Source of the DNA: a virus
IMG/VR virus record: IMGVR_UViG_3300035670_000904
Span: 1-31,277 of that record
Length of the DNA: 31,277 nucleotides
Direction: 5' to 3' (one strand)
Position 1 is the first letter of the stretch, and each line of letters opens with the position of its first letter. The translations under genes and the position numbers were made by a program. Under the pieces are notes generated by a model. It saw nothing but the letters and a program-made list of their open reading frames with translations, did no database searches and was not told the origin of the DNA. Below are positions 2,081 to 31,277 of this stretch, in pieces.

Positions 2081-2107
2081 AAGGTGGTCTAAAAACCACC
2101 TTTTTTT
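2081..2107 (+). terminator. Rho-independent terminator before terminase
   Basis: A perfect 8-bp stem is formed by AAGGTGGT (2081-2088) and ACCACCTT (2095-2102) with a 6-base loop. A run of seven T follows at 2101-2107. It lies five bases after the stop of the acidic protein and just before the promoter motif of the terminase gene, separating two transcription units. Confidence 0.9.
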
Positions 2108-2108
2108 A

Positions 2109-2116
2109 TATTTATA
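2109..2116 (+). promoter_or_regulatory. TATTTATA motif, putative late promoter of terminase
   Basis: An exact TATTTATA lies between the terminator and the terminase ATG at 2120. It is one of nine copies, all intergenic and all in the sense direction of the gene that follows. With T4-like spacing, transcription would begin within a base or two of the ATG, which implies a leaderless message. Confidence 0.6.
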
Positions 2117-2119
2117 TGT

Positions 2120-3892
2120 ATGAATTCTAAAATAGAACAATTAAAAGAATACGCTAAAATCATGAAGGATGCACCATACGCATTAAAAACGTATTTGCAA
2201 ACTTATGATAATACACAAAAAAAGTATGTACCGTTACAACTTTTCCCTGACCAAATTCAATTGATTGAGGATTATGAGAAGTATAATGAAAATATCACAA
2301 GAAAATATAGACAGGCGGGTGTTACAACTGTAACCGCTGCTTGGATTTCAAAAAAACTACAAACAGCAAAACCCGATGAACCCGAAAGAGTTCTTTTGAT
2401 TGCGAACAAACGAGACACCGCAGTGGAAATGGCCAATAAGGTTCGTAATTTTTTAGAACAATGGCCTGAGTGGATTAATGTAGGATTTTCTCCAGATAAA
2501 AACTCCGAAAGTAGATTTAGATTAAATAATGGATGTGAAGTTAAAGCCGTTGCAACTTCTGCGGACGCCTTACGTGGTTATACCCCAACAATTCTTGTAT
2601 TTGACGAGGCGGCCTACATTGAAGCGGGTGAGGATTTTTGGGCAGCATCTATGGCGTCGTTATCTACGGGTGGTAAAATTATTCTTATCTCGACACCTAA
2701 TGGTTACGACCCAATTTATTATGGTGTCTATGACCAAGCGGTTCGTGGTGTTAATGATTTTCACATTACAGATTTAAGATGGTTTAAAGACCCTCGTTAC
2801 ACAAAAGATTTACGTTGGGTTAAGTGTAATGATATTTGTCACTACATGTTAAACAGGGAACAATACGACGACAACGAAGTAGTATTGTATGATTTTGATA
2901 TTGAAAAATATAGAGAATATGAAGAACAAGGTTACAAACCATTTTCATCTTGGTTTGAATCTATGTCAAAAAAATTCAAATACGATAGACGTAAGATTGC
3001 ACAGGAGTTGGAATGTGATTTCTTGGGTTCGGGTGATGGTGTAATTCCAGGCGAAATACAAGAAAACATTGCAAAAAACATGATTAGACAACCCAAAGAA
3101 AAGTATATGCAGGGTACGTTTTGGCAATGGAAAGAACCAATTAATGGTCATAGATATATTATGGGGGTTGATGTTAGTAGGGGTGATAGTGAAGATTTTT
3201 CATCCATCAATATTGTTGATTTTGATGATAGGGAGCAGGTTGCAGAATATATTGGTAAAATACCACCTGACGATTTAGCGGCAATTGCATATAAATGGGG
3301 TGTTCTATATGATGCGTTTATTGTGATAGATATCACTGGTGGTATGGGTATTGCCACGTCAAGAAAACTACAAGAAATGAATTATAAAAATCTCTTCATT
3401 GATGGTGTGAATACACAAAATATGTGGGAGTATAATAGAAAGGCGTTAGAAAAAATACCCGGATTAAACTTTAATAATAAAAGAACACAAATAGTTGCAG
3501 CCTTTGAAGAACAATTAAGAAAAGGGTTCCAAGTTAGGTCGAGTAGATTATTAAATGAGTTAAACACATTTGTTTATGTTAATGGTAGACCTGACCACAT
3601 GAAGGGGGCTCACGACGATGCCATAATGAGTTTATCAATGGCTTTATATGCTGGAGACATATGTTTTAATCAATTACAAAGAAGTGACTCTAAAAACAAA
3701 GCAATGATTGAGTCTTGGGTGATGTCGGAGAGAACTTATGAATCCAATAGAACATTTTATTCATATGGTACATCCTTAGACCCAATCGGTTCAATGCAGG
3801 TTGACCCATCTATTTACCATAGAGATAATCCATTAAATGTACCAAAATCCGCTTATCAAGAGTACTCTTGGTTATTTGGTAAAAAGAAATAA
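2120..3892 (+). CDS. 17: Terminase large subunit (T4 gp17-like DNA packaging motor)
   Basis: This encodes 590 residues, close to the 610 of T4 gp17. The protein pumps DNA into the prohead and cuts the concatemer. The N-terminal ATPase shows a variant Walker A, KYRQAGVTT at residues 62-70, where the usual GK[ST] lysine is Val and a Lys instead opens the loop, as in other phage terminases with a K.RQ.G.[ST]T loop. Walker B is TILVFDEAA (157-165) with the catalytic Glu after Asp, and the coupling motif is ISTPNG (190-195). The C-terminal RNase H-like nuclease has its acidic residues in GVDVSRGD (Asp351), VIDITGG (Asp404) and HDDAIMS (Asp499/500). No Shine-Dalgarno is present. It is preceded by a terminator and a TATTTATA motif, and the portal gene follows directly, without the tail tube and sheath genes found here in T4. 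Confidence 0.97.
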   Translation: MNSKIEQLKEYAKIMKDAPYALKTYLQTYDNTQKKYVPLQLFPDQIQLIEDYEKYNENITRKYRQAGVTTVTAAWISKKLQTAKPDEPERVLLIANKRDTAVEMANKVRNFLEQWPEWINVGFSPDKNSESRFRLNNGCEVKAVATSADALRGYTPTILVFDEAAYIEAGEDFWAASMASLSTGGKIILISTPNGYDPIYYGVYDQAVRGVNDFHITDLRWFKDPRYTKDLRWVKCNDICHYMLNREQYDDNEVVLYDFDIEKYREYEEQGYKPFSSWFESMSKKFKYDRRKIAQELECDFLGSGDGVIPGEIQENIAKNMIRQPKEKYMQGTFWQWKEPINGHRYIMGVDVSRGDSEDFSSINIVDFDDREQVAEYIGKIPPDDLAAIAYKWGVLYDAFIVIDITGGMGIATSRKLQEMNYKNLFIDGVNTQNMWEYNRKALEKIPGLNFNNKRTQIVAAFEEQLRKGFQVRSSRLLNELNTFVYVNGRPDHMKGAHDDAIMSLSMALYAGDICFNQLQRSDSKNKAMIESWVMSERTYESNRTFYSYGTSLDPIGSMQVDPSIYHRDNPLNVPKSAYQEYSWLFGKKK

Positions 3893-3936
3893 AATATACA
3901 TTAATCCAATAAAAAGGTTTATATTATAAAGAAAAC

Positions 3937-3944
3937 TATTTATA
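3937..3944 (+). promoter_or_regulatory. TATTTATA motif, putative late promoter of portal
   Basis: An exact TATTTATA sits four bases upstream of the portal ATG at 3949, inside a 56-base gap that otherwise holds only AT-rich sequence and no clear terminator. The short spacing again predicts a nearly leaderless mRNA. Confidence 0.55.
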
Positions 3945-3948
3945 TAAA

Positions 3949-5769
3949 ATGGCAGATAATAACTTAACAGTTTTTCAGAAATTAACACGAGTGTTTGGGT
4001 TTCCTAATAAGGTAAAACCTGAAGAAATACCGTCATTTAATTTTTCGAAAGACGAACTATTGAAAACCGATAGTAGAGAAGAATATGAAAAGGCAATGTT
4101 ACAGGCTCAACAAAGTCAATACATTGCGGATAAATGGACAAAACTTGACCAATCCCTCTATAACCAATCGGTATACTACGAACCAAATAGATTGGCGGCG
4201 TATTATGATTATGAATCAATGGAATTCACACCTGAGATTTCTGCTGCGTTAGATATCTATGCTGAAGAATCAACAACATTATCCGAAAAGGGAGAAATAC
4301 TTACAATTTTTTCAGAATCAGAAAGAATTAAAAATATTTTAGAGGATTTATTCATTGATAAGTTAGACGTAAACACTAACCTACAAATGTGGGCTCGTGG
4401 GTTATGTAAATATGGGGACGATTTTGTTTATTTAAAAATTGACCCTGAGAAGGGTATTGTTGGATGTCAACAATTACCTAACATCGAAATAGAAAGGATT
4501 GAGGGTGCAGCAACTAAAACACCCGGTAATGAAAGAGACATTAAAATCCCAACAAGAGAGCTACGTTTCCAATGGAAAAATAAAGAATTAGAATTTCAAG
4601 CTTGGGAAATTGCACACTTTAGATTATTAGGTGATGATAGGAAGTTACCGTATGGTACTTCAATGTTAGACAAGATAAGAAGAATTTGGAAACAACTTTT
4701 ACTTGCCGAAGATGCTATGTTGATTTATAGAACAACAAGGGCACCAGAAAGAAGAGTATTCAAAGTTTTCGTTGGTAATATGGACGATAAAGATATTGAC
4801 CCATATGTACAACGTGTTGCAAATAAATTTAAAAGAGACCCAATCGCGGACCCAAGAAACGGTCAGGTTGATATGAGATATAATCAAATGGCGGTAGACC
4901 AAGATTATTTCATACCTGTTCGTGACCCATCACAAACAAACCCGATTGAAACATTACCAGGAGCACAGAATCTAGGTGAGATTGCCGATATTGAATATAT
5001 CCAAAAGAAGTTATTAGCAGCACTTAGAATCCCCAAGGCGTTCTTAGGATTTGAAGAAGTTGTTGGTGAAGGAAAAACATTAGCGTTAATGGATATTCGT
5101 TTTGCGAGAACCATTAATAGAATTCAAAAATCATTAATTCAAGAATTAAATAAAATTGCTTTAGTTCATTTATACCTTTTAGGTTTAGAAGATGAACTTG
5201 GTAATTTCTCATTATCATTAACAAATCCATCAGCTCAATCTGATTTATTAAGAATTGAGACTTGGAAAGAAAAGATAACATTATATAAAGACGCAACATC
5301 AGACCAATCACAATTAGGTATATTACCTGTGTCACACACATGGGCTAAGAAAAATATTCTTGGTATGAGTGATAGTGAAGTCGTATTAGATTTACAACAA
5401 CAACGTCTTGAAAGAGCAATGGGATTTGAATTAACAAACACACAAAATATCATAAAACGTTCAGGTGTGTTTGATGAAGTTGATAAGAAATATGGTATAC
5501 CCGAAGAAGAGAGAAAGAAATTAGAAGCTCAAGGAGGATTAGGTGGTGAAGAACCGGGTGGTTTAGATATGGGTGGTGGAACACCTCCACCGGCAGCACC
5601 ACCAGCTGGTGAGGAAGCGGCACCATTAAGTGAATCAACAAAAAAATCAAAAATATTGGGGATGTTGGGAGAAGAAAAAATGAGTTTTGAAGATTTATTT
5701 GATATGAAGAAGGCCCAACAGAATATTTATGAAATAGAAAATAAAATAAAAGATATTTTAAACGATTAA
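3949..5769 (+). CDS. 20: Portal vertex protein (T4 gp20-like)
   Basis: This encodes 606 residues, somewhat longer than T4 gp20 (524). The portal forms the ring through which DNA enters the head and on which the prohead is nucleated. Family features include YYEPNRLAAYYDYESMEF (residues about 76-94) followed by PEISAALDIYAEEST, a stem and clip region with RAPERRVFKVFVGNM, and RIPKAFLGFEEVVGEGKTLA typical of the helical stem. The extra length is mainly C-terminal: a Gly/Pro/Ala/Glu-rich linker (GGGTPPPAAPPAGEE) and a final charged helical segment ending KIKDILND. The tail could be a scaffold-binding extension, which is inference. The gene starts after a TATTTATA motif, lacks a Shine-Dalgarno, and is followed two bases later by the next gene. 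Confidence 0.95.
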   Translation: MADNNLTVFQKLTRVFGFPNKVKPEEIPSFNFSKDELLKTDSREEYEKAMLQAQQSQYIADKWTKLDQSLYNQSVYYEPNRLAAYYDYESMEFTPEISAALDIYAEESTTLSEKGEILTIFSESERIKNILEDLFIDKLDVNTNLQMWARGLCKYGDDFVYLKIDPEKGIVGCQQLPNIEIERIEGAATKTPGNERDIKIPTRELRFQWKNKELEFQAWEIAHFRLLGDDRKLPYGTSMLDKIRRIWKQLLLAEDAMLIYRTTRAPERRVFKVFVGNMDDKDIDPYVQRVANKFKRDPIADPRNGQVDMRYNQMAVDQDYFIPVRDPSQTNPIETLPGAQNLGEIADIEYIQKKLLAALRIPKAFLGFEEVVGEGKTLALMDIRFARTINRIQKSLIQELNKIALVHLYLLGLEDELGNFSLSLTNPSAQSDLLRIETWKEKITLYKDATSDQSQLGILPVSHTWAKKNILGMSDSEVVLDLQQQRLERAMGFELTNTQNIIKRSGVFDEVDKKYGIPEEERKKLEAQGGLGGEEPGGLDMGGGTPPPAAPPAGEEAAPLSESTKKSKILGMLGEEKMSFEDLFDMKKAQQNIYEIENKIKDILND

Positions 5770-5771
5770 AA

Positions 5772-6512
5772 ATGAACAATTTCGGAAAAATAAAATCCAA
5801 ATTTTTGAAAAAAATAACGGAGGCTTACGAGCAGGGGGGTTTAAAAAATAACACCAAGAACTTAATTAAAGTCGTTAAAAAGAATAAAGACTTTAAAGAA
5901 ATGTATTTGTTCTACGAAGAAATTGAAAACAAGTATTTCGACGATAAGGAAATTGCAAAGTTATATGTCGAAGAAATCGGTGGTATATTAAAACAAAAGG
6001 CAACAAAAGTTAAAGACTTCTGTGAAGTTATTAATATGTCAGTTTACGATACTCAAATCGATGAGAATGAATTATATGATTGTATAGACCAATTATTAGA
6101 AGAAGATACGTTGAAAAACATAGACAAGAAGGTAATTGCTAAGAAGAAATTAGTTGAGCATTTAACAACAAAAAAAGAAATTAAAGAATCTGAAAAATCT
6201 TCACACACAGCAAACGAAAATCTTTTACATGCCGTATTAGCAAATAATTTTAATGTACTTTATAATAACACATTGAATGAAGAACAAAAAAATGAGTTAA
6301 AAACTATTCTTTCATTGTCTAATGAGGAATTGGATGTGAAAACCGGTGAATTAAGAGAATCGATTTTGGGTAAAGTTGAAACTCTTTTATCTGAATCTAA
6401 AGAATCTGAATTCTCATCTAAATTAAATGACGTAAAAAAAGAGGTTAATAACATGTCAACCTCGAAATACAATTACTACAAACTATTACAATTAAAAGAA
6501 GGTCTTAATTAA
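5772..6512 (+). CDS. Putative prohead core/head protein in the gene 67/68 position
   Basis: This encodes 246 residues starting two bases after the portal stop, so it is almost certainly co-transcribed and coupled. It is Lys/Glu-rich and largely helical with no recognised domain. The first 17 residues form a basic helix ending in I-T-E followed by Ala (KITEAYE), a close match to a T4 gp21 cleavage site. In T4 the space between portal and protease holds the small core proteins gp67 and gp68, so a prohead core role is plausible by position. The last residues (KEGLN) are encoded inside a hairpin that also encodes the C-terminus of the convergent bS21 gene. Function is inferred, not shown. Confidence 0.75.
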   Translation: MNNFGKIKSKFLKKITEAYEQGGLKNNTKNLIKVVKKNKDFKEMYLFYEEIENKYFDDKEIAKLYVEEIGGILKQKATKVKDFCEVINMSVYDTQIDENELYDCIDQLLEEDTLKNIDKKVIAKKKLVEHLTTKKEIKESEKSSHTANENLLHAVLANNFNVLYNNTLNEEQKNELKTILSLSNEELDVKTGELRESILGKVETLLSESKESEFSSKLNDVKKEVNNMSTSKYNYYKLLQLKEGLN

Positions 6513-6523
6513 TCATTAAGACC
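6501..6523. terminator. Bidirectional terminator hairpin at convergent gene ends
   Basis: GGTCTTAAT (6501-6509) pairs perfectly with ATTAAGACC (6515-6523) across a 5-base loop. T-rich tracts follow on both strands (ATCTTTT on +, TTCTTTTAAT on -). The stop codons of the rightward gene (6510-6512) and of bS21 (6509-6511) lie within it, so one hairpin serves both genes. Confidence 0.8.
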
Positions 6524-6703
6524 ATCTTTTAACTTTTGAATGTAAATCGCCTTAAGTTTTTGAGTTCTTTTGATAACTGAAGGTTTAACAAATTCTTGTC
6601 TTTCTCTCAGTTTTTGTATTTGTTTAGTTTTTTGAACCTTACTTTTATAAACTTTAAGTGCGGTCTCAATGCTTTTCTGTTTAGTTACATCAATTATTAT
6701 CAT
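6509..6703 (-). CDS. rpsU: Ribosomal protein bS21 (phage-encoded)
   Basis: This encodes 64 residues, the short length seen in Bacteroidota bS21 rather than the 71 of E. coli. The sequence starts MIIIDVTKQKSIETALKVYK, continues with QKLRERQEFVKPSVIKR, and ends KLKAIYIQKLKDGLND. The arrangement of short beta strand, first helix with ALKxYK, LRxRQEFxKPSVxKR and KAxYIQ matches bS21. bS21 binds the 30S platform beside the 3' end of 16S rRNA. In flavobacteria that neighbourhood is known to hide the anti-Shine-Dalgarno, so a phage copy could bias or sustain translation on phage messages. The gene stands alone on the minus strand among rightward head genes, with its own TAnnTTTG-type promoter and a shared terminator, like a moron. 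It has no visible Shine-Dalgarno. Confidence 0.9.
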   Translation of the reverse strand: MIIIDVTKQKSIETALKVYKSKVQKTKQIQKLRERQEFVKPSVIKRTQKLKAIYIQKLKDGLND

Positions 6704-6719
6704 AAATTATAAGTATATT

Positions 6720-6733
6720 ACAAATATACAAAA
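6720..6733 (-). promoter_or_regulatory. TTTTGTATATTTGT element, putative host-type promoter of bS21
   Basis: On the minus strand this 14-mer contains TATATTTG, a match to the TAnnTTTG -7 element of Bacteroidota housekeeping promoters. It lies 16 bases upstream of the bS21 ATG. The identical 14-mer occurs once more at 11065-11078, upstream of the SAP/deaminase genes. I do not see a clear -33 TTTG at the expected distance. Confidence 0.6.
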
Positions 6734-6765
6734 AATATTTTGGCTTTTTAAGTTTTTTTCTTTAT

Positions 6766-6773
6766 TATTTATC
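6766..6773 (+). promoter_or_regulatory. TATTTATC, weak late-promoter-like site
   Basis: A one-mismatch copy of the TATTTATA motif lies 34 bases upstream of the ATG at 6808, in the AT-rich divergent gap between bS21 and the next rightward gene. The gap must hold a rightward promoter because the bS21 hairpin ends the upstream unit, and this is the best candidate I see. Confidence 0.3.
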
Positions 6774-6807
6774 TTACACCATAAAATAAAATAATATGAA
6801 AAAATAA

Positions 6808-7233
6808 ATGAAAATTGGGAAATATATTCCTTTAGGTGAATATAAAAATGTAAAGATAGGATACGGAACTGTCGATTTTAAAAATTTAAAAACAATTTAC
6901 TTAAAATTAAATTCTTGGATTGAGCCATTAGGTGATACAGACAATTTTGACCAATTAGTGAGTTCATCAAGAAGAGGTGTAAAAGAAATTATCTACAATT
7001 TAAAAAATGAAAAATTTAAACCACAGTCTATTGTGGATTTAGATATTAAAACAAAGGGAATTAAATTAGATAAAAGGTCTTTTATGAATTTAGAAATCAC
7101 ATTATATGTGGAGCATTTTTTTGATGTTAAGTCAAAAGATGTGAAAAAAACAATAAAAGAAACCATCGAAACTGTCATCGATAAGGGTTTAACAAATAAA
7201 AACCTCTTTAACTTCTACAAAAACAAGAAATAA
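6808..7233 (+). CDS. Uncharacterised protein upstream of prohead protease
   Basis: This encodes 141 residues. The N-terminal half looks beta-rich (GKYIPLGEYKNVKIGYGTVD), and the C-terminal half is a charged region ending in a Lys-rich helix. No catalytic motif or known domain is evident. The start is fixed by an upstream ATG at 6796 being followed almost at once by a stop, leaving 6808 as the first useful start. The leader is A-rich with no Shine-Dalgarno. It sits between the bS21 insert and the protease, in the head-gene block, so a head-assembly accessory role is possible but unsupported by motif. Confidence 0.7.
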   Translation: MKIGKYIPLGEYKNVKIGYGTVDFKNLKTIYLKLNSWIEPLGDTDNFDQLVSSSRRGVKEIIYNLKNEKFKPQSIVDLDIKTKGIKLDKRSFMNLEITLYVEHFFDVKSKDVKKTIKETIETVIDKGLTNKNLFNFYKNKK

Positions 7234-7247
7234 CTTATATATCGATG

Positions 7248-7255
7248 TATTTATA
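7248..7255 (+). promoter_or_regulatory. TATTTATA motif upstream of prohead protease
   Basis: An exact TATTTATA lies 20 bases before the ATG at 7276 in a 42-base gap. Its last two bases begin a perfect inverted repeat (see the entry at 7254-7271). T4-like spacing would place the transcription start near 7261, giving a leader of about 15 bases. Confidence 0.6.
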
Positions 7256-7275: not shown

Positions 7276-7959
7276 ATGAAGATATTAGGACCAAATGAAA
7301 CCGGCAAGGGTATATTAATTGAATACGATGCTGGTCATGTTTCTCCAGAAGATAATAAAAAAATCATTTCTGAAATGAAGAATGTGGACTTCTCTGAAGA
7401 CCTCATTCTTTATGCCGTTTTACAAAAATACGACACCCCAAATAAAAATGGTAGAATCTATCCCGAATTATTACTTAAAAGGGAAAATGAAAAATATCAA
7501 ACATTAATTAAAAAAGGTGGTGCTCTTAACGAACTAAATCACCCTTCATCATCTCTTATCGATTTAGATAGAGTTTCACATTCAATCCTTGAAACATGGT
7601 GGGATGGTAAAATGTTAATGGGGAAAATTAAATTATTCACATCACCAGGTTGGAAGAAGATGGGTATCGTTTCCACTAAAGGGGACCAAGCAGCAATGTT
7701 ATTAATGAATGGGGCAACTTTAGGTATTTCATCTAGAGGAGTTGGTTCATTGAAAAATATCAAAGGTCAAAACATTGTTCAAGAAGATTTTGAATTAGTG
7801 TGTTTTGATTTAGTTTCTTCACCATCCACACCAGGTGCGTATATTTTTTCTGACCCTTCAGAAAGAGACCAATATCAAGAATCCATCTCAGAAGAACCCG
7901 TTTTAAACGACAGAATGAAAAAATTAATGGGTGGATTAGATAGATTTTTATCCAAATAA
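7276..7959 (+). CDS. 21: Prohead core protease (T4 gp21-like, peptidase family S77)
   Basis: This encodes 227 residues, near the 212 of T4 gp21. The enzyme is a serine protease assembled in the prohead core that trims scaffold and head proteins after Glu in [LI]xE sites. The likely catalytic His is His89 in LNELNHPSS, the Ser is Ser152 or Ser153 in LGISSRGVG, and an acidic residue follows in FELVCFDLVSSPSTPGAY. The region YDTPNKNGRIYP near residue 52 is typical of the family. The C-terminus (ISEEPVLNDRMKKLMGGL) has an [LI]xE site followed by RMKKLM, a pattern shared with the C-termini of the scaffold and two leftward late proteins. The order protease, scaffold, capsid is that of T4. Confidence 0.95.
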   Translation: MKILGPNETGKGILIEYDAGHVSPEDNKKIISEMKNVDFSEDLILYAVLQKYDTPNKNGRIYPELLLKRENEKYQTLIKKGGALNELNHPSSSLIDLDRVSHSILETWWDGKMLMGKIKLFTSPGWKKMGIVSTKGDQAAMLLMNGATLGISSRGVGSLKNIKGQNIVQEDFELVCFDLVSSPSTPGAYIFSDPSERDQYQESISEEPVLNDRMKKLMGGLDRFLSK

Positions 7960-8013: not shown

Positions 8014-8021
8014 TATTTATA
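8014..8021 (+). promoter_or_regulatory. TATTTATA motif upstream of scaffold/capsid genes
   Basis: An exact TATTTATA is 19 bases before the scaffold ATG at 8041 and is followed by an A-rich leader. No separate promoter or terminator is seen before the capsid gene, so this motif probably drives both scaffold and major capsid protein. Confidence 0.6.
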
Positions 8022-8040: not shown

Positions 8041-9252
8041 ATGACCGAAAAATCAATTTTAGAACAAGCGTTACTTCAAGTTCAGACACTTGAAGAAGCA
8101 GTAAAGCAAAATGCAAAAGGTATACTTGCTTCAACAATGAAGGAAGAACTTAATGAATTGCTTAAAGAGTCAGAAGAAGAGGTTGAAGTAGATGAACAAT
8201 CGGAAGATAGTCTATCTATGGATGAACCTAAAGAAGAGGAAGAAAATGACATGTCAGAACAACCTGTAGCCGACGATGAAGAAGGTGAAGATGAATCTGA
8301 AGATGATGAAGAAAACCTCGATAATGAACCAAGTAAAGACATTGATTCAATGGATTCGGAAGATGGTGAAGAGGACGATGAGTTCACTGCCACTGACGAT
8401 TCAATGGACGATGAAACATCTATGGATGACATGGATTTAGGTGGTGATGATGTTATGGATATGACAGATGCTTCTGATGAGGAAGTTTTAAAAGTATTCA
8501 AAGCCATGAAACCTGAAGACGGAATTGTTGTTAAAAAAGATGGTTCTAATGTTGAACTTGAAACCGGAGATGACGAGTATATCATTAAACTTGACGAAGA
8601 AGAAGACGAAGAAGTTTCTGAAGAAAAAGAATGGGGTGATTCTGAAATGCATGAAGAAGATGCTGAAGTTGAATCCGATGAAGTATCTGAAGAAGACGAA
8701 ACAATCTACGAAATCGAGTTAGATGAAGAAGAAGACGAAGAATCTGAAGTATCTGAAGAAGATGCTAAAGAAGTTGAGGCTACAGAAGCAGCAAGAACAT
8801 TCGCTAACGACGTTAGAAAACCAGCAAACCAAGGTAAAAAATTCAAAGCTGGTCGTCCTGAATTAAACGAAGAAGTTGAAACTCTTAAGAAACAAAATTC
8901 TGAGTATAGACAAGCTTTAGTTCTTTTCAAGGATAAACTTAACGAAGTTGCAATTTTCAACGCAAACTTAGCACACGCCACTCGTTTATTTACAGAACAT
9001 TCTACGACTAAACAAGAGAAATTGAATATTCTTAAGAGATTTGATTCAGTTTCGACAATGAATGAGTCTAAAAGCTTATTCAATACAATAAAATCCGAAT
9101 TAGACACTAAAAAACCTGTGACTGAATCGGTTGTTGACAAAATCTCAAACACTCCAACAACATCTACTTCTCAAGAGGTGTTAGCGGAATCAAAAGCTTA
9201 CGAAAATCCTCAATTCAGAAGAATGAAAGATTTAATGAGTAAATTAAAATAA
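8041..9252 (+). CDS. 22: Prohead core scaffold (T4 gp22-like)
   Basis: This encodes 403 residues against 269 in T4 gp22. It is assigned from position between gp21 and gp23 and from its build: N-terminal helix, very acidic centre, C-terminal coiled-coil-like region (LNEEVETLKKQNSEYRQALVLFKDKLNEVA). The acidic stretch, residues about 40-250, is nearly all Glu, Asp, Ser and Met and carries an imperfect internal repeat (LDEEEDEEVSEE and LDEEEDEESEVSEE). Several [LI]xE protease sites are present, including VLAE before the end. The final segment NPQFRRMKDLMSKLK shares RMKxLM with the protease C-terminus. Scaffold would be degraded by gp21 before DNA entry. The expanded acidic centre explains the extra length. 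Confidence 0.88.
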   Translation: MTEKSILEQALLQVQTLEEAVKQNAKGILASTMKEELNELLKESEEEVEVDEQSEDSLSMDEPKEEEENDMSEQPVADDEEGEDESEDDEENLDNEPSKDIDSMDSEDGEEDDEFTATDDSMDDETSMDDMDLGGDDVMDMTDASDEEVLKVFKAMKPEDGIVVKKDGSNVELETGDDEYIIKLDEEEDEEVSEEKEWGDSEMHEEDAEVESDEVSEEDETIYEIELDEEEDEESEVSEEDAKEVEATEAARTFANDVRKPANQGKKFKAGRPELNEEVETLKKQNSEYRQALVLFKDKLNEVAIFNANLAHATRLFTEHSTTKQEKLNILKRFDSVSTMNESKSLFNTIKSELDTKKPVTESVVDKISNTPTTSTSQEVLAESKAYENPQFRRMKDLMSKLK

Positions 9253-9285: not shown

Positions 9286-11004
9286 ATGGGAGCATTATTA
9301 GAATCAGGTATGGTTGGTAACATCGGTCTTAAGCACCTTCGTGTTATCAAAGAAGATACCATCAAAAAATGGGATGACTTAGGATTCCTAGACGGTCTTG
9401 ACGGCCATCAAAAAGATAACATCGCGCAATTGTATGAAAACCAAGCGTCTTACTTAATCAACGAAGCAGCAGTTTCTGATGCTAGTGGTTCTTTCGAGAC
9501 TGTAGTTTTCCCAATTATCCGTCGTGTATTCTCTAAATTATTAGCTAACGACATCGTGTCTGTACAAGCTATGAACTTACCTATCGGTAAATTGTTCTAC
9601 TTCATTCCGAAGATTCAGGACACTAAAAAGGCACCTTTCGGTTACCCTAACGCATCTGACACAGACCCTCAAGCTGGTTATACATCTTCTCAAAGTTTGT
9701 ATGACAGATTTTATGAAGGAAGTGACGAAGCTGACCAAGGTATTTTCGATTACTCAAGAGGTGAGGCTACAACTATAGAAGTTAATCCACACGCATTCGT
9801 TACATTCGATGCTGGTGTTCCTTCAACTTCAGCAGCAGCATTAAGTGGTGACAGTGTATCAAACTTTATCATCGTTCTTTCTGGTTTCAGTACAGACGGT
9901 CAAGGTAAAATGATTGGTGCTGACGGTAACGTAATGGATACTGAAGAGTTCTTAGCATCTCTACAAGTTGAAATCACTGGTAACACAACTGCAAACAACG
10001 GTGTTAAAAACTTTAACGTAGTTACACAAAAGTACGGTAAAGGTATCGTTGAGTATGGTGCAAAAGCTGGTAGTGGTTTAAACAAATATAACACTATTTG
10101 TGACCAAGAAGGTTTAATCTACCTAAGTGTAGACGTAGAAGGTTACACTTCAACTTCAGGTTTCAGTGCATCTGACTACAGTGCAAATGATTTATCATTA
10201 GCTAACATTAAAGTTACATATAGAACTTACGATAGTTTAGAATTTGAAGAAACTATTGGTGAAGTATCTTTCGACCTTCAATCAGTAACAGTTTCTGTAA
10301 CTGAAAGAAAGTTAAGAGCTAGCTGGTCTCCAGAATTAGCACAAGACGTTTCTGCGTTCCATAACATCGATGCTGAAGCTGAATTAACAGCTTTATTATC
10401 TGAGCAAGTTGCAGCAGAAATCGACCGTGAAATTTTACGTGACCTTCGTAAAGGTGCCGCTTGGACAGCTAAGTGGGATTACAACGAATGGAAATACGGT
10501 AATGGTGGTACAGCGTTCGCAGGATACACTCAAAAAGACTGGAATCAAACGTTAATCACTAAGATTAACCAAATTTCAGCACAAATCCACAAGACTACTT
10601 TAAGAGGTGGTGCTAACTGGGTTGTTGTTTCTTCAGAAGTATCTGCAGTATTAGATGATTTGGAATATTTCCACGTATCTAACGCTCACCCTGAGCAAGA
10701 CCAATACAACATGGGTATTGAGAAAGTTGGTTCATTAGCAGGTCGTTACCAAGTATATCGTGACCCTTACTTCCCAGCAGGTAAAATCCTTATTGGACAC
10801 AAAGGTAAGTCATTGTTAGACGCTGGTTACATCTACGCACCGTATGTACCACTTCAATTAACTCCAACAATGTATAATCCATTCAATTTTACCCCAATTA
10901 AGGGTATTATGACAAGATACGCTAAGAAAATGGTTAACAACCGTTACTTCGGTGTAATCAACGTACATGGTTTACAAACATTCAGTTTGGACACTTTAAG
11001 ATAA
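9286..11004 (+). CDS. 23: Major capsid protein precursor (T4 gp23-like)
   Basis: This encodes 572 residues, compared with 521 in T4 gp23. The N-terminus matches the gp23 propeptide region: NIAQLYENQASYLINE followed by Ala-Ala. The I-N-E/A site after Glu60 is the predicted gp21 cleavage, close to Glu65 in T4, leaving about 512 mature residues. FPIIRRVFSKLLANDIVSVQ (about 74-93) and the closing NRYFGVINVHGLQTF are typical of the family. Codon use differs from neighbouring genes, with many C-ending Asn, Phe, Ile and Asp codons and CGT for Arg, as expected of the most highly expressed gene. The leader is A-rich with no Shine-Dalgarno, and a strong terminator follows. Confidence 0.96.
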   Translation: MGALLESGMVGNIGLKHLRVIKEDTIKKWDDLGFLDGLDGHQKDNIAQLYENQASYLINEAAVSDASGSFETVVFPIIRRVFSKLLANDIVSVQAMNLPIGKLFYFIPKIQDTKKAPFGYPNASDTDPQAGYTSSQSLYDRFYEGSDEADQGIFDYSRGEATTIEVNPHAFVTFDAGVPSTSAAALSGDSVSNFIIVLSGFSTDGQGKMIGADGNVMDTEEFLASLQVEITGNTTANNGVKNFNVVTQKYGKGIVEYGAKAGSGLNKYNTICDQEGLIYLSVDVEGYTSTSGFSASDYSANDLSLANIKVTYRTYDSLEFEETIGEVSFDLQSVTVSVTERKLRASWSPELAQDVSAFHNIDAEAELTALLSEQVAAEIDREILRDLRKGAAWTAKWDYNEWKYGNGGTAFAGYTQKDWNQTLITKINQISAQIHKTTLRGGANWVVVSSEVSAVLDDLEYFHVSNAHPEQDQYNMGIEKVGSLAGRYQVYRDPYFPAGKILIGHKGKSLLDAGYIYAPYVPLQLTPTMYNPFNFTPIKGIMTRYAKKMVNNRYFGVINVHGLQTFSLDTLR

Positions 11005-11839: not shown

Positions 11840-11844
11840 TTACC
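11824..11844. terminator. Weak hairpin at convergent junction
   Basis: GGTAATT (11824-11830) pairs with AATTACC (11838-11844) around a 7-base loop. The two back-to-back stop codons (TAA at 11837-11839 and its counterpart at 11840-11842) fall in the loop and right arm. The T-tract on the plus side is short, so termination would be modest. Confidence 0.45.
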
Positions 11845-12598
11845 AAGTTTTACAAGCCCAATATCTTGGTTTCCAACGTGGTCCAGGGTTTGAACAATTA
11901 TGTCTAGCTCTAAATGATTTACGTCTTTTTGGGTTATTTTTCTTAATAACCATTCTTTTACCTTTTGCAGATTTACCACCGAAACCGAAGTTCACTTTAA
12001 CTACTTTACCTTTGTCGTTTTTAACGTAAACTTTAAATTTCTTAACATCTCCTTGCATGATTTTACCTAATTGAACTTTACGTCCTTGGTATTCGGCTTC
12101 ACTAATTAAAAACCCATCACTTTCATAATTAGTTTGTTGTACAGAACCAAATTCATCTTCATATATCAATACAGGAGTTTCTTCGTTGAATTCAAATAAT
12201 CTGTTAAATTGTTCTTCGGATATTTGAATTACCATTTTTTTCTGTTCGTCGAATTTTGTCATTGTCGGTTTATTTCCTTTTCCAATTTTAGGGTCTTTTT
12301 TTTCTGCTCTTCTTTTTTGGGATGTCATTGATTTTTTTTCTTTTTTATCATAAGAAGACGCAATTTTTGGTGTACTTTTTGAGACTTTTTTTGATGGTCG
12401 ACATTTTGGATAACCTTTTCTTCCTTCTTCCCCATTTGCAGATTTTCTACCACAAGGGGGGTGTTTACCCTTTATTTTTCTACTTACATCGACCCACTTT
12501 TCTTTAAACCATCTCGCTAAGTCTTCTTTTAACACTTCTCCCGACTCGAGCGATTCGTTTAAATATTGTAAATCTTCTTGATTTATTAATATTTTCAT
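11840..12598 (-). CDS. Basic two-module phage protein, possible internal head protein
   Basis: This encodes 252 residues, strongly basic overall. It starts with a tag-like helix ending in V-L-K-E. Module one (residues about 26-115) has KWVDVSRKIKGKHPPCGR, GYPKCRPSKK, SQKRRAEKK and GKGNKPTMTK, a Cys-containing pattern I know from uncharacterised phage proteins and similar to what databases call DUF6321. At Met122 a second tag-like helix appears (MVIQISEEQFNRLFEFNEE). Module two ends in a conserved basic segment RKSFRARHNCSNPGPRWKP then YWACKTW, with His and two Cys that could bind metal. Two tags in one chain suggest a fusion of two genes, or an internal start at 12235. It is the last gene of the leftward block. 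Function is unknown. Confidence 0.8.
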   Translation of the reverse strand: MKILINQEDLQYLNESLESGEVLKEDLARWFKEKWVDVSRKIKGKHPPCGRKSANGEEGRKGYPKCRPSKKVSKSTPKIASSYDKKEKKSMTSQKRRAEKKDPKIGKGNKPTMTKFDEQKKMVIQISEEQFNRLFEFNEETPVLIYEDEFGSVQQTNYESDGFLISEAEYQGRKVQLGKIMQGDVKKFKVYVKNDKGKVVKVNFGFGGKSAKGKRMVIKKNNPKRRKSFRARHNCSNPGPRWKPRYWACKTW

Positions 12599-18468: not shown

Positions 18469-19167
18469 TTATTCTAAAAAACCACCCATTATACCATTGT
18501 ATAATTTTCGATATCTCTTAAGTGATATTCTAATTTCTTTGGTGCTAAGTGATGTCATTTCCCTTAATGAAAGTAATATTAGGTTTTTATTAAACTTATT
18601 ACCGTCCCCAACTTGGAATATTTTATCAAAATTTGAGAATATTTCGAGTAGAGCATATCCTAATTTTTGTTCGTTGTCCGTTAAATCTTCGGTTTCAACA
18701 AATTCTTCTAAGGTTATTGTGAGTTTAATTATGACGTCTCTATAATCCAATGGAGTGTCGTCAATAGTGTAGGATAAATCGGCTCTGTCCTCAATATCTG
18801 ACGATATGTCGTCATATGAAACTTGTCGATTTTGTTCTTTGGTATCTTTTTGTATTGCACCCATCAAATAATTCTTACAAATTGTACCAAAGTAAGAATA
18901 TGCTTTGTGGTTTTTAGTGTGGTCAAACTTATTAATCTTTGTAATCAAAAAAGACATGGTATCGTTGTGAATTTCCTCAAATTCCATGTCTTTTCTGTAC
19001 AACTTATATCGTCGAATAATTGATTCGACCATTATAATTAGGGGTTCTCTTAAATATTCATTGAATATCTTATTCTTTTCTATATCGGATTCTGATTCTA
19101 AATATCGTATTACCGCTTGTTCTTGGTCCTCCCCAAAATATATTTTTTGGGTTCTTTTTCTTGGCAT
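18469..19167 (-). CDS. 55: Late-transcription sigma factor (T4 gp55-like)
   Basis: This encodes 232 residues, compared with 185 in T4 gp55. It resembles a minimal sigma-70 factor: residues about 34-82 fit region 2.1-2.2 (core binding, with IHNDTMSFLITKINKFD), and 85-115 fit region 2.3-2.4 (NHKAYSYFGTICKNYLMGAI, then QKDTKEQNR), which melts and reads the -10 element. The C-terminal part (LREMTSLSTKEIRISLKRYR) is helical and could be a reduced region 4 or clamp-contact segment. In T4, gp55 with the sliding clamp directs RNA polymerase to TATAAATA. Here the recurring intergenic motif is TATTTATA, so this protein is its probable reader. It lies four bases downstream of a glycosyltransferase gene. 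Confidence 0.88.
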   Translation of the reverse strand: MPRKRTQKIYFGEDQEQAVIRYLESESDIEKNKIFNEYLREPLIIMVESIIRRYKLYRKDMEFEEIHNDTMSFLITKINKFDHTKNHKAYSYFGTICKNYLMGAIQKDTKEQNRQVSYDDISSDIEDRADLSYTIDDTPLDYRDVIIKLTITLEEFVETEDLTDNEQKLGYALLEIFSNFDKIFQVGDGNKFNKNLILLSLREMTSLSTKEIRISLKRYRKLYNGIMGGFLE

Positions 19168-30143: not shown

Positions 30144-30149
30144 TTACAC

Positions 30150-30157
30150 TATTTATA
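30150..30157 (+). promoter_or_regulatory. TATTTATA motif upstream of collagen-like gene
   Basis: An exact copy lies 13 bases before the ATG at 30171, in a 27-base gap after the lectin-like gene. It is followed by an A-rich leader. Confidence 0.6.
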
Positions 30158-30170
30158 ATATAATTGAAAA

Positions 30171-31277
30171 ATGGCAAATTTAAAAATTTCAGAATTACCC
30201 GAATATACCGGAAACACGGACGGAATATATTTGGTCATTGATTCATCAGACTTATCTGAAACATATAAAATAAGAAAAGAAAACCTAATAGGAGAATCGA
30301 GCACCTCTGGTTCAAGTGGAACGTCAGGTACATCAGGTTCGTCGGGTACTAGCGGTTCTAGTGGTTCGTCAGGTATTGATGGGACGTCAGGTACATCAGG
30401 TATTGATGGAACTTCAGGAACTAGTGGTGAATCAGGTTCATCAGGAACAAGTGGTACCTCGGGAACTAGTGGCGAATCAGGTTCATCAGGAACAAGTGGT
30501 ACCTCGGGAATTGATGGGACGTCAGGTACTTCGGGTATCAATGGAACTTCAGGAACTAGTGGTGAAGATGGAACAAGTGGTACTTCGGGTATCAATGGAA
30601 CTTCAGGAACTAGTGGTGAATCAGGTACCTCGGGTTCGAGTGGTACCTCGGGTTCGAGTGGTACAACCGGTTCAAGTGGAACCTCGGGAGTGGACGGGGT
30701 AAGTGGCACTTCAGGTACAAGTGGAATTAACGGCACTTCGGGAACGTCTGGAGAATCCGGTAGTTCAGGTACTAGTGGTACTTCAGGAACAAGTGGAACA
30801 TCAGGTTCTTCGGGTAGTTCAGGTACTAGTATTGACTTATCTACATCATCTCTTGGAGATTTGGGTGATGTATTTACATATACAGGAACCACATTATCGG
30901 ACGGATATCAATTATCTTGGAATGACACAACAGATGAGTGGGAACCAAGACCATCAGCATCACAAAAAGGTGTAATTAGATTATTCGTTTCGGCAGCTAG
31001 AAGTAATACTGCTGTTTTTTATTTTAACTCCGTAACAAGAACGGCAGATGCTTCTTCGAGTCCTGTTTATGATAGTGCTTTTATGGTAACAACAAGTTTA
31101 CTGAATAATGTTACAGTTTATTTAAGACAAGATGGGAACTCATCAAATAGTGTTAGAATAGATATATTTAAAAATGCAGACGGGACAGACTTCTCGTCCG
31201 CTTCAACTATTGCAAATCAAACAACTACTATGGGATTAAATACTGTTAGTACGTTTCAATTTACTGGATTAACATTA
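30171..31277 (+). CDS. Collagen-like fibre protein (3' end outside window)
   Basis: The frame is open to the last base, so only the first 369 residues are seen. Residues 1-43 (LKISELPEYTGNTDGIYLVI and so on) are the short 'ISELP' start typical of phage fibre proteins. Residues about 44-220 are almost pure Gly-X-Y triplets, mostly GTS and GSS with interspersed GID, GIN, GES, GED and GVD, as in phage collagen-like stalks; Pro is absent, so stability would come from trimer packing and Thr/Ser. After it comes a linker (LGDLGDVFTYTGTTLSDGYQ, then LSWNDTTDEWEPRPS) and a globular beta region (VIRLFVSAARSNTAVFYF). A trimeric tail or head fibre is likely. Long open frames on the other strand here are by-products of the repeat. 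Confidence 0.85.
   Translation, partial: MANLKISELPEYTGNTDGIYLVIDSSDLSETYKIRKENLIGESSTSGSSGTSGTSGSSGTSGSSGSSGIDGTSGTSGIDGTSGTSGESGSSGTSGTSGTSGESGSSGTSGTSGIDGTSGTSGINGTSGTSGEDGTSGTSGINGTSGTSGESGTSGSSGTSGSSGTTGSSGTSGVDGVSGTSGTSGINGTSGTSGESGSSGTSGTSGTSGTSGSSGSSGTSIDLSTSSLGDLGDVFTYTGTTLSDGYQLSWNDTTDEWEPRPSASQKGVIRLFVSAARSNTAVFYFNSVTRTADASSSPVYDSAFMVTTSLLNNVTVYLRQDGNSSNSVRIDIFKNADGTDFSSASTIANQTTTMGLNTVSTFQFTGLTL
30300..30830 (+). repeat. Triplet-coding repeat tract with nested tandem duplications
   Basis: The tract encodes Gly-X-Y triplets in 9-base units. Longer, nearly identical blocks are nested in it: a 45-base period at 30417-30461 and 30462-30506 (a single mismatch), and a 54-base period with 42 identical bases at 30525-30566 and 30579-30620. 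All periods are multiples of nine, so changes in copy number keep the frame. Confidence 0.9.

Follow-up and report, generated by a model that had tools for sequence, protein, structure and literature searches.

A phage-borne Bacteroidota-type bS21 gene without a Shine-Dalgarno sequence, in a head-gene block with a promoter-like late box

Genes for ribosomal protein bS21 are common in viruses (Mizuno et al. 2019, PMC6375957). The bS21 of pelagiphage HTVC008M is incorporated into 70S ribosomes of E. coli, a heterologous host, and in this experiment, the sole functional assay applied to a viral bS21, the ribosomes were ~5% active (PMC6375957). Among Bacteroidetes myophages, Chen et al. 2022 (PMC9723584) described a reverse-strand bS21 gene lying among the terminase, portal, prohead protease and capsid genes. 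These phages, grouped into clades a-e, have genomes of 293-331 kb with 5-25 tRNAs. Their bS21 carries an aromatic residue at position 54 and is expressed late in lake metatranscriptomes; the study does not deal with promoters or with the length of leaders (PMC9723584). An aromatic residue 54 is a mark of Bacteroidia-type bS21, and in Flavobacterium johnsoniae this residue, Tyr54, stacks on A1534 of the 16S 3' tail and helps to hide the anti-Shine-Dalgarno. In the same bacterium bS21 is essential and its gene, rpsU, is autoregulated via an extended Shine-Dalgarno (SD) sequence, in light of which McNutt et al. 2023 discuss phage bS21 (PMC9976891). Replacement of the host bS21 by a phage copy was put forward in papers of 2019 to 2023 (PMC6375957, PMC9723584, PMC9976891). 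The phage-borne Bacteroidota bS21 is likewise already published for freshwater phages, and the locus analysed here is a further member of the described group. It comes from a virus record that is a genome fragment of 31,277 bases, all of which make up the window analysed; the rest of the genome lies outside the scope of this work.

A Bacteroidota-type bS21 gene within a conserved head-gene block

The window carries the following genes around bS21, together with a putative sigma factor gene further downstream:

2120-3892, plus strand: TerL, T4 type (Pfam PF03237; phrog_2, E 2e-39)
3949-5769, plus strand: portal vertex protein, named by position (homologues in 79 loci)
5772-6512, plus strand: convergent conserved neighbour, 246 aa, whose stop overlaps the bS21 stop by 4 nt in the window
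6509-6703, minus strand: phage rpsU (bS21, 64 aa; ATG 6703-6701, stop 6511-6509)
6704-6807, no strand: divergent intergenic region between bS21 and its neighbour, conserved in the alignment
6808-7233, plus strand: divergent conserved neighbour, 141 aa, present in 74-78 loci
7276-7959, plus strand: prohead protease (Pfam Peptidase_S77, E 1.4e-21), with a late box (described below) at 7248-7255, position -28
8041-9252, plus strand: acidic protein in a scaffold-like position between protease and major capsid protein, with a late box at 8014-8021, position -27
9286-11004, plus strand: major capsid protein, gp23 type (Pfam Gp23, E 2e-75), without a box of its own
18469-19167, minus strand: gp55-like late sigma factor (phrog_234 'late sigma transcription factor', E 8e-5; Pfam Sigma70_r2, E 6e-4, under the Pfam cut-off)

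The initial annotation had read 6509-6703 as a phage-encoded bS21 of the Bacteroidota type, and both parts of that reading are borne out. A profile search that could have favoured another family matched Pfam Ribosomal_S21 (PF01165; profile positions 2-52 of 55, E 4.2e-12) with 46 bits against a curated cut-off of 27 bits, and the PHROG 'ribosomal protein S21' was hit as well (E 8e-5). In a phmmer search of the PDB the best solved relative is F. johnsoniae bS21 (7JIL chain z, E 1.1e-13), which aligns without gaps over residues 1-63; of five further bS21 chains retrieved, four have E values of 2e-4 or worse. Tyr54 is kept, aligned to Y54 of 7JIL. The sequence is nearest to Bacteroidota bS21, with 45-53% identity to the closest Bacteroidota rpsU products, and its loop is of a phage type (SKVQKTKQIQ, the F. 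johnsoniae counterpart being RKFDKTGTVR). The open reading frame is a true bS21 of Bacteroidota type, and its phage-borne nature is confirmed by the phage head genes that flank it in about 80 contigs.

A scan of IMG/VR identified 276 viral contigs encoding a relative of this bS21, one of them 251 kb long, and 80 were fetched for comparison of the locus. The layout of Chen et al. is found in the window and in these relatives, and bS21 lies in every case on the strand opposite to the genes for TerL, portal, protease, scaffold-like protein and capsid. The order TerL-portal-protease-major capsid protein, as found in Flavobacterium phage immuto, in Chen et al. and in the annotated NC_055915, is the basis on which the portal was named. 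The stops of bS21 and of its convergent neighbour overlap by 4 or 8 nt in all 78 measured loci, and the divergent gap to the other neighbour is 98-107 bp in 74 of 74. Either of these two neighbours, 5772-6512 and 6808-7233, could correspond to the gene that Chen et al. call bS21_CN. Family searches gave no trustworthy hit for the 6808-7233 protein; its AlphaFold model (pLDDT 82.7) matched no PDB fold above noise (best Z 7.1, Foldseek E 7e-3) and had one good match, the uncharacterised myophage protein A0A8S5L9A5 (TM 0.7).

The intergenic region 6704-6807 has features of its own on the strand of the neighbour gene. A conserved TTTTTGG lies ~20 bp before TTAT(T/A)-TTTT, like a -33/-7 promoter, and a conserved CACCATAA precedes the start of the neighbour. 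Abutting the ATG of that gene, ATGAAAAAATAA (6796-6807) is a three-codon micro-ORF that ends at the start codon, and related loci often carry ATGAAAAATTAATG, in variable frame. Elsewhere in the window, the gene at 11840-12598 (minus strand), which follows a switch of coding strand, matches DUF5872 (E 5e-12). An open reading frame that runs off the window end (30173-31277, plus strand) starts with MANLKISELPEYTGNTDGIYLVIDSSDLSETYKI, continues with collagen-like GTSGTSG repeats and is probably a fibre gene; the frames at 30149-30892 (minus strand) and 30316-30702 (plus strand) are its shadows. No tRNA was found within the 31-kb window.

Among phage bS21 pairs with unsaturated dS the median dN/dS is 0.14, which indicates purifying selection and, with the 276 viral relatives, shows that the bS21 frame is not a product of chance. 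A maximum-likelihood tree was built from 43 distinct phage and 51 bacterial sequences of 64 residues, a length that gives the phylum and perhaps the class but no host. All 43 phage proteins form one clade with no bacterial member (ultrafast bootstrap 84). Phylogeny had been proposed as a way to name the host, and it yields no host name, since all phage copies group outside the sampled bacteria. The nearest bacterial rpsU genes by branch length are Flavobacterium-like (L124, L132), and the highest raw identity, 53%, is to a Bacteroidales metagenome-assembled genome (L082); the affinity of the phage proteins is with the phylum Bacteroidota and, within it, probably Flavobacteriia-like.

Shine-Dalgarno sequences and host feedback

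The phage gene had also been described as having no visible SD, an observation that is correct for the window, where the best pairing of the upstream with the 16S 3' tail is +0.9 kcal/mol with no 3-nt match, and that extends to 41 of 41 distinct relatives. When pairing energies with the 16S tail were compared, the 41 distinct phage bS21 upstreams, none of which contains AGG, gave a median of +0.2 kcal/mol, versus -9.9 kcal/mol for 53 bacterial rpsU upstreams. The accompanying claim was that flavobacterial rpsU keeps an SD. Flavobacterium-like host genes do have an extended SD, with GAAAGGAGGTG-type sequences and pairing energies of about -16.6 to -17.7 kcal/mol. A clear SD is absent from 6 to 7 of the 17 sampled Bacteroidota-type host rpsU genes, so that SD feedback is not universal.

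Most genes in the window have no SD. As SD-less starts are the norm in Bacteroidota, its absence from phage bS21 is expected by default and need not reflect selection for escape from feedback. From the published mechanism it would follow that phage rpsU stands outside the host SD feedback loop; what is added here is that phage bS21 copies are without the feedback signal seen on many host rpsU genes.

A late box and the predicted starts of late messages

At the bS21 loci, the sequence TATTTATA occurs no more than 40 nt from the start codon in 105 of 186 distinct intergenic gene-upstreams and never in the preceding 40 nt of the same upstreams, and it is found before none of 42 abutting genes. 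Its occurrence is strand-specific, the reverse complement being present in 3 of the 186 upstreams versus 105 for the sense orientation. It is found genome-wide in the 251-kb relative and in another of 94 kb. In immuto, an isolate without bS21, it precedes the genes for TerL, portal, sheath, tube, tape measure and baseplate hub. A role as translation-start signal is thought unlikely, as its distance from the start codon differs between genes, within a range of 11 to 35 nt, and the sequence is strand-specific and absent before abutting genes. It is best described as a strand-specific, promoter-like phage box that precedes late genes, and the gp55-like sigma factor encoded at 18469-19167 is the natural candidate for its reader.

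The elements upstream of TerL, portal and bS21 are:

2083-2107, plus strand: intrinsic-terminator-like hairpin with T-run (GGTGGT-N6-ACCACC-T7), ending 12 nt before the TerL ATG
2109-2116, plus strand: late box TATTTATA, 11 nt before the TerL ATG
3937-3944, plus strand: late box TATTTATA, 12 nt before the portal ATG
6708-6715, minus strand: TACTTATA, a variant of the late box, starting 12 nt before the bS21 ATG
6721-6728, minus strand: TATATTTG, which fits the Bacteroidota -7 consensus TANNTTTG, starting 25 nt before the bS21 ATG

The distance between box and start codon is characteristic of each gene in the bS21 clade. The box starts at -11 to -14 in all distinct TerL (22/22) and portal (28/28) upstreams, at -21 to -29 in 31 of 31 protease upstreams and at -27 to -35 in 22 of 23 upstreams of the scaffold-like gene, and it is found in none of the 29 upstreams of the major capsid protein gene. 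Nearly every TerL upstream has a C-rich arm and a T-run ahead of the box. As hairpin and T-run end 12 nt before the TerL ATG, a fresh transcript fits only at or beside the start codon, and this ATG is itself credible because the first 14 TerL codons vary largely synonymously among relatives. Transcription in F. johnsoniae starts 12 nt downstream of the beginning of the -7 element, and leaders exceed 10 nt in 87% of the genes with a probable promoter, with a mean of 33 nt (PMC6847099). When this -7 spacing is applied, the TerL and portal mRNAs are predicted to have no leader or one of 1-2 nt. With a T4-like spacing of 5 nt between box and start, transcription of some TerL and portal genes would begin within the AUG itself, and the cases at -11 assume a shorter spacing. 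Read in this way, the upstream sequences predict that TerL and portal mRNAs are leaderless, or nearly so, in the bS21 clade.

In the immuto group, which is without bS21 and was compared over 80 loci, the box lies ~12 nt further upstream than in the bS21 clade. It is at -21 to -36 in 41 of 41 distinct portal upstreams; among 46 distinct TerL upstreams it is at -25 in 16, at -22 to -36 in 3 and at -12 in 2, while the remaining 25 have no exact match, some of them showing TATTTATT at the same place. A DNA-pattern scan with T6-N-TATTTATA-N-ATATGA returned 80 loci, 71 of which precede TerL of the bS21 clade, and bS21 is present in all 35 of these with enough downstream sequence. A leaderless TerL arrangement without bS21 was sought among the pattern-scan loci and no counter-example was found. 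One contig considered as such, L298, was set aside, as its sequence stops within the portal gene and an insert interrupts its TerL. This insert, of 1.5 kb (2645-4182 of that relative), is possibly an intron or a homing element.

The initial annotation had spoken of leader-poor phage mRNAs, a description that is supported by TerL and portal, whose messages are predicted to be leaderless or nearly so. What is new here is the late box, along with late TerL and portal messages that seem to start at the start codon.

Upstream of bS21, a strict TAYTTATA is found at -16 to -9 in 27 of 42 distinct sequences (0.58 expected from a dinucleotide shuffle), and TANNTTTG at -25 to -27 in 25 of 42 (0.79 expected), counts that are inflated by kinship and for which the shuffle controls composition only. 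Relaxed forms of the late box are present in 39 of the 42, in 32 of them at -12. Both the -7 consensus and the 4-5 nt spacing are taken from PMC6847099. Most simply, the two boxes form a tandem, one of host type and one of late type. The host-type box TATATTTG would give a bS21 leader of about 12-13 nt, and the variant late box predicts a leaderless or nearly leaderless bS21 mRNA. Given the host-type box in 25 of 42 upstreams, part of the bS21 transcription may precede the late phase.

Proposed role and comparison with known systems

We consider it probable, if by no means assured, that the locus sustains a late supply of phage bS21 in the 30S subunit, and with it SD-less initiation, while bypassing host feedback. 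A T4-like myophage of a Bacteroidota host would carry, within the head-gene block, an rpsU of host origin that has long since diverged. Its transcription would run divergently from that of the structural genes and, judged by the late-type box, take place mainly late. The product would join the host 30S subunit at the bS21 site, where Tyr54 and the conserved C-terminal helix would keep the 16S 3' tail tucked away, as host bS21 does. In this manner the phage would maintain ribosomes that are complete with bS21 and fit for late mRNAs with no SD or with a short leader or none, and its bS21 synthesis, directed by an mRNA without SD, would not be throttled by the SD feedback of many flavobacterial rpsU genes.

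It is also conceivable, though unlikely, that phage bS21 retunes the ribosome selectively, its altered N-terminal half and its loop near the mRNA path favouring phage late mRNAs over those of the host, above all messages that start at or beside the AUG. The phage loop indeed differs from that of the host at positions flagged by Chen et al. (R21, F23, T28). The predicted leaderless TerL and portal messages of the bS21 clade, mostly not leaderless in the bS21-less immuto group, would fit such a role, as would the pattern-scan loci (71/80 before bS21-clade TerL, bS21 in 35/35) and the leaders of F. johnsoniae itself, longer than 10 nt in 87% of probable-promoter genes. However, the bS21 and immuto groups are two lineages, so that the association of leader and bS21 may reflect a single event, the leader shift being unrelated to bS21. 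Leadered late genes (protease, scaffold-like) occur in the same bS21 phages, no literature was found that links bS21 to leaderless initiation in Bacteroidota, and the transcription starts are predictions; the support for selective preference is correlative. A still more specific proposal, that the late promoter came to lie on the start codons of TerL, portal and usually bS21, and that phage bS21 promotes initiation at 5'-terminal AUGs, is improbable in our estimate.

More doubtful again is a role outside elongating ribosomes, with bS21 for instance packaged in the virion, a possibility raised by Chen et al., or acting as an RNA-binding regulator of its own neighbourhood; its place in the head-gene block would accord with this, but the conservation of ribosome-contact features including Tyr54 would be unexpected if ribosome binding had been lost. 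That a host sequence was joined to a phage contig in assembly, or that the gene is decaying and without function, has nothing in its favour beyond the host-like family of the protein and can be dismissed, given the flanking phage head genes with conserved spacing and overlap in ~80 contigs, the dN/dS of 0.14 and the distinct phage clade.

A late supply of phage bS21 that works within the ribosome would bear on a wider question, phage-borne ribosomal proteins being a testable case of a virus altering the translation machinery of its host, here in the phylum in which bS21 is known to gate the anti-Shine-Dalgarno. Both the insulation of phage rpsU from SD feedback and an aid of phage bS21 to leaderless initiation are directly testable. 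Initiation at a 5'-terminal AUG is a mode seldom used by F. johnsoniae, and the predicted leaderless TerL and portal messages offer concrete templates for that question.

Late transcription in T4 uses the gp55 sigma factor and late promoters of sequence TATAAATA. The window resembles that system in having a putative gp55-like sigma gene and an 8-bp box before head and tail genes, and departs from it in that the sense-strand box TATTTATA is the reverse complement of the T4 sequence, with an orientation bias. Like the bS21 of pelagiphage HTVC008M, the protein is a presumed host-derived bS21 of a myophage; unlike that alphaproteobacterial-type protein, it is of Bacteroidota type and belongs to a different phage lineage. 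With F. johnsoniae bS21 (PDB 7JIL; PMC9976891) it shares a full-length alignment of 63 residues, Tyr54 and the C-terminal helix, whereas about half of its residues differ, notably in loop 20-31, and the phage gene has no SD where F. johnsoniae rpsU has an extended one. The closest correspondence is with the phages of Chen et al.: although the window is a 31-kb fragment only, its bS21 is likewise on the reverse strand between two conserved hypothetical genes in the TerL-portal-protease-major capsid protein block, has a Bacteroidetes-type sequence with an aromatic residue 54, and is accompanied elsewhere by PhoH and dUTPase genes.
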